Positions 32,402-39,814 of a DNA stretch of 39,814 bases are shown here, one piece after another. Where the stretch lies: NCBI GenBank assembly GCA_903894475.1, contig CAITQH010000099.1, positions 1 through 39,814 of the forward strand, given 5' to 3'. The notes beneath the pieces are model-generated. The model saw only the letters and a list, made by a program, of their open reading frames with translations, was not told the origin of the DNA and made no database searches. This DNA comes from an uncultured beta proteobacterium. Lineage in GTDB: Bacteria > Pseudomonadota > Gammaproteobacteria > Burkholderiales > Burkholderiaceae_C. Numbering within the stretch: position 1 is the first letter of the stretch; every line of letters starts with the position of its first letter. Position numbers and translations under genes: made by a program.

Positions 32402-33379
32402 ATGGAAATCTTTGACTACGAGAACATTCTTCTGCTGCCGCGCAAATGCCGCGTCGAGAGCCGATCCGAATGCGACGCCAGTGTGGAGCTCGGCGGTCGG
32501 CGTTTTCGCATCCCGGTGGTGCCGGCCAACATGAAGACCGTGGTCAATGAAGAAATCTGCATCTGGCTGGCACAGAACGGCTATTTCTACGTGATGCACC
32601 GCTTTGACCTGGACAACGTGCAGTTCGTGAGGAACATGAAGGCGCTCGGACTGTATGCCTCGATCTCGCTGGGAGTGAAGCAACCCGACTACGACGCCGT
32701 TGAACAGTTGCTGACGCTGGGACTGGTGCCTGAATACGTGACCATCGACATCGCCCATGGCCACTCGGACAGCGTGAAGAACATGATTGGCTACCTGAAA
32801 GAGAAGATGCCTTCAGCCTTCATTATTGCCGGCAACGTAGCAACACCCGAAGCGGTGATCGACCTGGAGAACTGGGGCGCTGACGCCACCAAAGTTGGCA
32901 TCGGCCCAGGCAAGGTCTGCATCACCAAGCTGAAGACCGGTTTTGGCACCGGCGGCTGGCAACTGAGCGCCGTCAAGTGGTGCGCCCGTGTCGCAACCAA
33001 GCCGATCATTGCCGACGGCGGCATTCGCGAGCACGGCGACATCGCCAAGTCAATCCGCTTTGGCGCCACCATGGTGATGATTGGTTCTATGCTGGCGGGC
33101 CACGAGACCAGCCCCGGCCAGACGGTGGAGGTGGACGGCAAACTGTTCAAGGAATACTACGGCTCGGCCAGCGACTTCAACAAGGGCGAATACAAACACG
33201 TTGAAGGCAAACGGATTCTGGAGCCCATCAAGGGCAGCCTGGCCAACACCCTGATCGAAATGGAACAGGACGTGCAGAGTTCCATCAGCTATTCGGGCGG
33301 CAAGAAGTTGATGGACATCCGCAAGGTCAACTACGTCACACTGGGCGGTGACAACGCGGGCGAACACCTGTTGATGTAA
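32402..33379 (+). CDS. guaC: GMP reductase (Bacillus-type GuaC)
   Basis: NADPH-dependent reductive deamination of GMP to IMP, purine interconversion. The 325-residue TIM barrel lacks the CBS domains of IMP dehydrogenase. The catalytic Cys173 lies in [49 protein letters not shown] and [11 protein letters not shown] match the shorter GMP reductase class I know from Bacillus/Staphylococcus rather than the E. coli GuaC. Whether this form is common in the lineage or transferred cannot be told here. AGGAG precedes the ATG. A terminator hairpin 30 bp upstream may limit readthrough from phrB. Confidence 0.92.
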
Positions 33380-37324: not shown

Positions 37325-37482
37325 TCATTGTATAACCCGCTTGATCCCAGCGCTTGTCTCCAGTTGATGGTTACTTCCATCGCACGAAGGCTTTCCAGCC
37401 TTCAGTCTATAGCTCACCGCCTCCATCTCTTGAATTTCAACGTGTATTTGCTACGTGCCTGTCCGTCTTTCCTCTTGCTCAT
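37325..37482 (-). pseudogene. IS3-family transposase OrfA remnant (frameshifted)
   Basis: After GGAGG the ATG at 37482 begins MSKRKDGQARSKYTLKFK, the usual start of IS3/IS911-type OrfA, but an extra AG shifts the frame and gives a stop five codons on. The sequence resumes as MEAV in the other frame (from 37426), then loses similarity and stops at 37325. No OrfB or matching inverted repeats are found nearby. Only the N-terminal match supports the family call. Confidence 0.5.
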
Positions 37483-37907
37483 TTCGTAACCTCCAGTGTC
37501 TGAAATTTTCCATCAGCTATGCAGTACGTTTTCCGGGGGCAAGCTCAATCCGTCCCATTCGATCAGCAACTGTCCCATCAGAGTGGTCGACTACTACGTG
37601 ATGCCCGCGCTTGATCTTGCGGGGCCGGCACTGAGCATCTTCAGCCGGCGTGAAAGCAGTCTGGATTGCTTTCGCTTTGACTCTCTGGACTTCCTTTATG
37701 GAATGACCGAGCGCATGCCGGTGATGCGCCGGGGTCATGGATTACCGCCCCTCTTTTTGCGGCCAAACCTAAAGCCCCTTGCGCTCAATTGAACAGCCCT
37801 TACCAAGGAAACCGCTCCGCATTGGAACCCCCTTTGATTTCAAATTGACCCACGCGCGAGGCCCCTGGTCAAAGCTTCTTTGCTTATCGCGTGGCCACTT
37901 AACAGCC

Positions 37908-38396: not shown

Positions 38397-38612
38397 TCAT
38401 GCCGGCTGTTTGGGCTGTGGAAACCCTGTTGCTATACAACGTATCACAGGACAAATTGACGAGGACTTAAGGGGGTAGTGCCGTAGTAGCTGACGTGCTG
38501 TCTTGCGCACGTCGTCAGCGATGCCTGGCGTGTCGCCTGGCATCGTTAGCGTCTCAAGGAAACGTCTTGTTTTCAGTAAAGCCCGGGTGCGCTGGTGTGG
38601 TTCTGTCATCAT
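38397..38612 (-). CDS. BPSL0761-like small protein
   Basis: A 71-residue ORF with its own start MMTEPHQRTRALLKTRRFLETL and RKTARQLLRHYP. The TRALLxTRxFLExL...PGIxxxVRxxARxLLRHYP pattern is that of the BPSL0761 family, small proteins of unknown function common in Burkholderiales. AAAGGAG lies 5 nt before the ATG pair at 38612, a strong independent translation start. The frame is continuous with the integrase ORF above it, but the similarity and ribosome site argue that this is a separate gene. The last 20 residues do not look conserved. Confidence 0.68.
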   Translation of the reverse strand: MMTEPHQRTRALLKTRRFLETLTMPGDTPGIADDVRKTARQLLRHYPLKSSSICPVIRCIATGFPQPKQPA

Positions 38613-39587
38613 TTGTTCTCCTTTTGCCTGAACGCTTACCCGGCGCTCGCAAACCTCGACTGCAATGCCTTGTAAGCCGACTTCATCCAAATAGACGGAC
38701 TGCTCAATTCCAGGGGTATCCCAGGCGTCTCGGTAGTTGTACGGCCCCCATCCTTCCTCAAACCTCTTCTTTGTAGCGAAGATGTACTTACATGTCGCAG
38801 GCGATGCGTCCACAATCGCACGAATGCACCGGTGTACCGGTATCGGCAGCACTATCGTGCGCGCGTCTTCGTTCTTTGTCCGCGGTAGTGTTATTTGCGG
38901 CGGTTGGTCACGCAGCCACGATTTCTCTGCGTGAGATATCTCACCCGGCCGGCACCCGGCACTAAAAAGTGTCATGAAAAAAGTGTAGGCTTTCAGGTCG
39001 CTGTCGATTGCCGGGCATGAGAAAAATTTGCCGATGACCTGGTCAGACATGCGCTGTGTGCGCCGGTCAGAGACTGGCTTCTTGACAGTCAACGTGACGT
39101 TGTCGATTATTTTCTTTGTCTCGATAGCCCAAGCCAGCATGGCTGATAGCGCGGCGACCTCGAGCCGTATCTGGGCCCCGCTCAGCTTTGCCTTTGGGTC
39201 TTTGCTGCGCACAGGCTTCACGTCTCGGCGCTTCGATATGTAGGCCCGCACATCATCTGCAGTGAGCTCTGTGAGCAGCTTGTCACCGAGCTCTGCGAGC
39301 ACAGGGATGTGCTTCGGTATCTCTGACCTCCTGGTCGAGTCAGCCTTGGCCAGCCATTCCTCTGATTTCAAATATTGCGGCCAAACGTCGGCAATCGTCA
39401 GCCCCTTGGGTGCATCTTCCAGCGCGGTTCTGTCTTGCTTTACCCATGTGCCCTTTCGCATGCGCCCCATGGTCTTATCTGCCCACGTCTGCGCGTCTTT
39501 TTGGTGGTCAAAGGTCTGGGCATCTTTCATGTCGCGGACCCGCGCAAAGCCACGAAAACGACCGCTGGGAAGCATCACGACTGACAT
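38397..39587 (-). CDS. Tyrosine-type integrase, catalytic C-terminus lost (probably inactive)
   Basis: A phage/island integrase ORF of 396 codons. Residues about 1-60 are an N-terminal arm-binding type domain, 63-170 the core-binding (SAM-like) domain (TIADVWPQYLKSEEWLAKAD), and from about 180 the catalytic domain. Box I Arg213 (SAGCRPGEISH) and Lys238 (RTKNEDARTIVLP) are present. After GPYNYRDAWD (about 290) similarity stops: no HxxR box and no nucleophilic Tyr follow, and the frame runs into the BPSL0761-like ORF at residue 326. A genuine integrase would continue about 80-100 residues. AAGGAG precedes the ATG. It sits next to the tRNA-Lys fragment, as expected of a tRNA-targeting integrase. 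Confidence 0.8.
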   Translation of the reverse strand: MSVVMLPSGRFRGFARVRDMKDAQTFDHQKDAQTWADKTMGRMRKGTWVKQDRTALEDAPKGLTIADVWPQYLKSEEWLAKADSTRRSEIPKHIPVLAELGDKLLTELTADDVRAYISKRRDVKPVRSKDPKAKLSGAQIRLEVAALSAMLAWAIETKKIIDNVTLTVKKPVSDRRTQRMSDQVIGKFFSCPAIDSDLKAYTFFMTLFSAGCRPGEISHAEKSWLRDQPPQITLPRTKNEDARTIVLPIPVHRCIRAIVDASPATCKYIFATKKRFEEGWGPYNYRDAWDTPGIEQSVYLDEVGLQGIAVEVCERRVSVQAKGEQMMTEPHQRTRALLKTRRFLETLTMPGDTPGIADDVRKTARQLLRHYPLKSSSICPVIRCIATGFPQPKQPA

Positions 39588-39702
39588 GCTTTTCTCCTTG
39601 TTTGCTCACAAAGCCTGCTCACGGGGCATTTTGTGAGAAAAGTGCAGTTTACGGGAGAAAGGGTATTAATCCGTAACCCTATGATTTAATAAGGGTTTTG
39701 AA
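39588..39702 (-). promoter_or_regulatory. Upstream region of integrase, with inverted core copy
   Basis: This stretch between the integrase start and the tRNA fragment is A/T-rich. It holds TTAATCCGTA (39667-39676), the same 10 bp as in the tRNA fragment but in inverted orientation, and AACCCT/AGGGTT arms close by. These could be recombinase-binding or promoter elements; no consensus promoter is certain. Confidence 0.4.
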
Positions 39703-39747
39703 TGGTGGGAACTGAGAGATTCGAACTCTCGACCTACGGATTAAGAG
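39703..39747 (-). other. 3' fragment of tRNA-Lys(CUU), probable integration (att) site
   Basis: On the minus strand the sequence from the anticodon loop CTCTTAA (anticodon CTT) through the 3' anticodon-stem strand TCCGT, variable loop, T arm GAGAG-TTCGAAT-CTCTC, acceptor AGTTCCC, A and CCA is a complete tRNA 3' half. The 5' half is absent: the bases upstream (GAATTTT) do not pair with TCCGT and no GGGAACT acceptor strand is found. Similarity starts exactly at the anticodon loop, a usual crossover site for tyrosine integrases. The remaining 67 bp to the window end show no gene. Confidence 0.8.
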
Positions 39748-39814
39748 AAAATTCAGGGCCCTTTTTGCAACTTCGTGGCGACGGCGTGGTCAATGAAATC
39801 AAGGACTTACGAGC

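Follow-up and report, generated by a model that had tools for sequence, protein, structure and literature searches.

Mobile elements can be stacked in a single tRNA gene. In Streptococcus agalactiae, where the sites used include the 3' end of tRNA-Lys(CTT), such stacking has been described in terms of CIMEs, composite islands and tandem accretion, and the most decayed element of a streptococcal array lies farthest from the tRNA gene (PMC7563491). Tandem accretion at tRNA-Lys(CUU) is already known, and the Rhodoferax seam described here adds one more case; the part of the finding that could be new is a family of elements termed type A. As with the S. agalactiae CIMEs and composite islands, several elements occupy one tRNA-Lys(CUU) and are split by copies of its 3' end. 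The CIME trait of retained attachment sites with lost or broken recombination genes is also present (the integrase in the window is truncated, and the type A element on contig C483 has no integrase match), and the inferred order puts the broken element at the greater distance from the tRNA, as in the streptococcal rule. In contrast to the S. agalactiae case, the host is Rhodoferax, type A brings defence cargo together with an excisionase-like gene, and the readable Rhodoferax parts yielded no recognisable conjugation gene, in an inspection not aimed specifically at such genes. P4/CP4-57-like islands, which have Arm-DNA-bind_3 integrases, are a further point of comparison. Element D on C483 resembles them in its integrase (PF13356 and PF00589), its tRNA 3'-half core and its arm motifs; unlike these, the integrase remnant in the window belongs to another lineage.

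The window (the whole stretch of DNA analysed, 39,814 bp) is a complete contig, C99, and the assembly contains no sequence beyond its last base. The source is a Rhodoferax metagenome-assembled genome (MAG; G000) of 5.2 Mb in 536 contigs, with 7% contamination. By Pfam, the gene content of C99 is mostly ordinary chromosome (aspartate carbamoyltransferase, RuvX, AlgH, an IMP dehydrogenase/GMP reductase family protein and EipA), and synteny with relatives runs from about 24.8 kb up to guaC. The right end of the window is very probably a recombination seam between two mobile elements which integrated successively in the 3' end of tRNA-Lys(CUU) by tandem accretion. The features concerned are:

32402-33379, plus strand: guaC-like IMP dehydrogenase/GMP reductase gene (PF00478; synteny with relatives)
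38397-38717, minus strand: BPSL0761-family small protein, a frame continuation of the broken integrase (NF041728 at residues 327-374)
38718-39587, minus strand: remnant of a tyrosine recombinase, about 290 residues long and lacking the C-terminal catalytic part (phrog_1 match up to residue 289)
39672-39687, plus strand: integrase-side arm-type motif CGTAACCCTATGATTT, inverted (differs from the fuller motif at 3 positions; p=0.009 by shuffling)
39703-39747, minus strand: tRNA-Lys(CUU) 3' half, the attachment-site core, 45 bp (exact match to intact genes of relatives)
39748-39814, no strand assigned: distal end of the second element (type A), cut by the contig end (similarity to C28, G023:C157 and G486:C89)
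39796-39811, minus strand: arm-type motif CGTAAGTCCTTGATTT on the second-element side (same sequence at the same place in C28 and G023)

The core runs from the anticodon loop to CCA and equals the 3' half of the intact tRNA-Lys(CUU) of many relatives, GGGAACTTAGCTCAGCTGGTAGAGCAGCGGACTCTTAATCCGTAGGTCGAGAGTTCGAATCTCTCAGTTCCCACCA. No match to it arose in 100 dinucleotide shuffles, even with 3 mismatches allowed. ARAGORN finds no tRNA-Lys in the window, and the sole Rfam match on the core is a chance match. The first-pass annotation, made from the sequence of the window, had described an exact tRNA-Lys(CUU) 3' half without a 5' half; the match to relatives and the shuffles bear this out. Its proposal that the fragment marks a seam depended on there being no tRNA 5' half to the right of 39747 and on the 45 bp occurring again in the genome. 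In the 67 bp available (39748-39814) there is no resemblance to the tRNA-Lys(CUU) 5' half, and two further exact copies of the core are found, on contigs C28 and C483, giving three in total; the copy on C483 is a second seam.

The tRNA-Lys(CUU) 5' half is absent from the whole assembly, where the closest matches are tRNA-Lys(UUU) and another tRNA. The gene is consequently either unassembled or lost; it is intact in most relatives, and a contig break at repeated sequence is the likelier cause. Neither the intact gene nor the adjoining integrase that the first-pass annotation expected is present in the assembly, and the complete order of the array is therefore not visible. Direct copies of the tRNA 3' end separate elements both in this genome (three cores) and in five relatives (G015, G034, G035, G061 and G068), where second cores adjoin an intact tRNA-Lys(CUU); these show that the same site accepts elements elsewhere. 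In Rhodoferax, tRNA-Lys(CUU) is thus an integration hotspot that collects elements in series. Inserts of 1.1-1.7 kb lie between tRNA-Lys(CUU) and the second core in G015 (L040, 1192-2856) and G068 (L087, 9379-10463). Neither small insert has an integrase match; by eye, that of G015 holds a gene pair resembling BrnT/BrnA.

Different element ends flank the one core in the window: the integrase remnant and an arm motif on the left (CCA) side, and a type A end and an arm motif on the right (anticodon) side. The pattern CGTAA-N5-TGATTT has only two sites in the 39,814 bases (0.00 expected); these are inverted relative to each other and flank the core, 15 bp before it and 48 bp after it. The two inverted arms recreate an attP-like site at the seam. 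On the type A side, the sequence AAATCAAGGACTTACG is common to the ends in the window, C28, G023 and G486, at +49 in the three that were scored. About 40 core sites were scored for the fuller motif CGTAAGTNNTTGATTT, with single-site p-values from mononucleotide shuffles; the motif was picked after inspection of some of the scored sites.

Among these sites, a close left arm (0-3 mismatches, at -28 to -31) occurs only where the flank is read as the inner end of an element. The right arm is seen at the majority of tRNA fragments that lack a 5' half, and L101 is the one intact tRNA that has it. Most intact tRNA sites have neither arm, and the native flanks of tRNA-Lys(CUU) contain a terminator-like hairpin and, in most cases, lack an arm motif. 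Two intact tRNAs, L087 and L093, have the left arm at -28/-29; L087 has a second core 1.1 kb downstream, i.e. an inserted element. On C28 only the right arm is present, and its CCA side is 80-87% like the native terminator flank that other species have at this tRNA. Most simply, the left arm is read as an element's inner end and the right arm as its outer end, in which case both arms around one core indicate an element-element junction. Both arms are found in the window, on C483 and on G023:C157; the last is the most ambiguous, as ordinary chromosomal genes begin a short way into its left side. The presence of left, right or both arms around a tRNA core offers a sequence rule for reading arrays from broken assemblies.

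The arm 19-mer AAATCAAGGACTTACGAGC has 26 exact matches in viral contigs (L139-L164), in about nine unrelated contexts, and an arm 17-mer has 18 matches in 401 genomes of the family. Reading such matches as integrase arms in general was rejected: several of the family matches are arms of the tRNA-side terminator-like hairpin, so the short arm motif alone is not diagnostic. Several of the viral-contig matches lie near genes resembling terminases.

On the left, a 396-residue open reading frame (38397-39587, minus strand) starts 115 bp from the core. Its integrase homology (PHROG) ends at residue ~290 (base 38718), ahead of the last catalytic residues. In G019 and G004, intact relatives of 442-444 aa have a C-terminal part with active-site motifs which is absent from the window frame; the remnant is 31-37% identical to Rhodoferax relatives of that length and has no Pfam match. 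The integrase is thus a relic, here assigned to an element F, of which nothing else remains. Of the earlier description, the integrase gene beside the fragment and its shared orientation hold, with the correction that the gene is not intact. No C-terminal remainder of the integrase was recognised in the genome; a BPSL0761-like module similar to the one that continues the frame is found at the end of contig C481 of this genome and in G063. The intact relatives in G019 and G004 (L123/L124) adjoin, on the anticodon side, a 3' fragment that resembles a different tRNA and ends GGTTCGATTCCGCCCCAGGCCACCA.

The sequence to the right of the core (39748-39814) is neither tRNA nor native flank. Including the core, the right-hand 112 bp are 99% identical to C28 (one mismatch); the type A end is 83% identical to G023:C157, and a related copy occurs in G486:C89, from a different genus. 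It is conserved in two other species beside the same tRNA fragment, and in all four copies it directly follows the same core. Conservation extends over about 200 bp in the three longer copies and takes in two TTGGACA repeats 10 bp apart. On C28 and in G023 it leads into a gene for an excisionase-like HTH protein of 116 aa; C483 begins with the third copy of this gene. The cargo behind the HTH gene is GmrSD, an LPO_1073-family protein and HsdS on C28, and a HAD protein and HipAB on C483; AbiEii is the cargo in G486. In G023 (L037, 8297-18300), by eye, the type A end and HTH gene adjoin genes resembling a nitric-oxide reductase cluster. A core bounds the other end of the C483 element; with the spacing seen in C28, the distal core has to lie about 200 bp ahead of the contig start. 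Queries with the HTH protein and with the end sequence gave no type A match in plasmids, phage records or viral contigs. A gene termed 'MWIF' was considered as a marker of type A inner ends and not adopted, since on C28 it sits behind a native-type terminator.

The one unusual feature of the seam is that the neighbouring element family, type A, appears to bring defence genes yet lack an integrase. A tentative proposal, somewhat doubtful at present, is that these are small integrase-less elements with a conserved ~200-bp end, an excisionase-like HTH gene in the three known copies (C28, C483 and G023) and exchangeable defence genes (HipAB, GmrSD with HsdS, AbiEii), moved in trans by neighbours' integrases which recognise the same arms and tRNA core. 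If true, these defence elements would be a tractable case of small elements that borrow a neighbour's integrase.

That a second element begins beyond 39747, as the first-pass annotation suggested, is supported by the type A end, the inverted arms on both sides and the two further cores. The following order of events would account for the seam. A tyrosine recombinase would exchange strands within the tRNA 3' half. Element F would have integrated first and then decayed. A later type A element would have entered between the tRNA gene and F, and the core in the window would be its right junction; the HTH/HipAB/'MWIF' element with which C483 begins is the probable newcomer. Element D, with its Arm-DNA-bind_3 integrase, would then lie on the tRNA side of the type A element, and the intact tRNA-Lys(CUU) would fall in an assembly gap. 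As proposed, the tRNA remains functional because a copy of the 3' half travels with each element: on integration this copy completes the tRNA again, and the previous one ends up behind the new element.

C483, whose HTH gene has no assembled distal end, is by elimination a possible continuation of the type A end in the window, across a gap of about 140 bp. Against C483 as a sure continuation, identity to C28 reaches 99% for the window end and no more than 82% for the HTH region of C483. Contig C434 was rejected as a continuation of the native downstream side; the match is inside a long contig, near cellulose synthase-like genes.

Some points count against the seam reading. The intact tRNA-Lys(CUU) is missing from the assembly, the window holds no more than 67 bp of the second element, the contamination (7%) and fragmentation (536 contigs) of the MAG mean that contigs of two strains could be mixed, and the orientation relative to guaC is unusual. 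Where a relative's retrieved locus covers both genes, they share a strand and tRNA-Lys(CUU) comes after guaC, with a spacing that ranges from direct adjacency to about 5 kb; here the fragment is 6.3 kb past guaC on the opposite strand. Because the scar is inverted relative to guaC, an extra rearrangement is needed, suggesting inversion or relocation of the array. If the array had been inverted with one breakpoint within the integrase gene, this hypothetical event would account for the truncation as well as for the orientation.

An assembly chimera, in which integrase-side reads were joined to C28 reads via the shared 45-bp repeat, is unlikely. The join does sit at a repeat present three times in a fragmented MAG, and the right-hand 112 bp match C28 almost perfectly. 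However, the one mismatch suggests a copy separate from C28, the second type A excisionase gene, on C483, would otherwise have no distal end assigned to it, and the left arm in itself marks the integrase side as the inner end of an element. This last point also bears on whether the core is the ordinary right attachment site of a single element with plain chromosome on the integrase side. The ordinary chromosomal genes further left and the broken state of the integrase speak for this, but the remnant and the inverted arm beside the core mark a second element, and the native flanks of this tRNA have the hairpin and mostly no arm; such a site is very improbable. The attP-like arrangement would also fit the junction of an excised circular element captured by the assembly. 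This has almost no likelihood: the left side is 38 kb of mostly ordinary chromosomal genes, syntenic from ~24.8 kb to guaC, and such a flank leaves no single circle with the type A element unless the flank is itself misjoined.

Between guaC and the integrase remnant, a stretch of about 135 bp (37412-37547) is 76-84% conserved at about a dozen other Rhodoferax loci and occurs again on C506 of this genome; by appearance, it is possibly the leading end of an insertion sequence.
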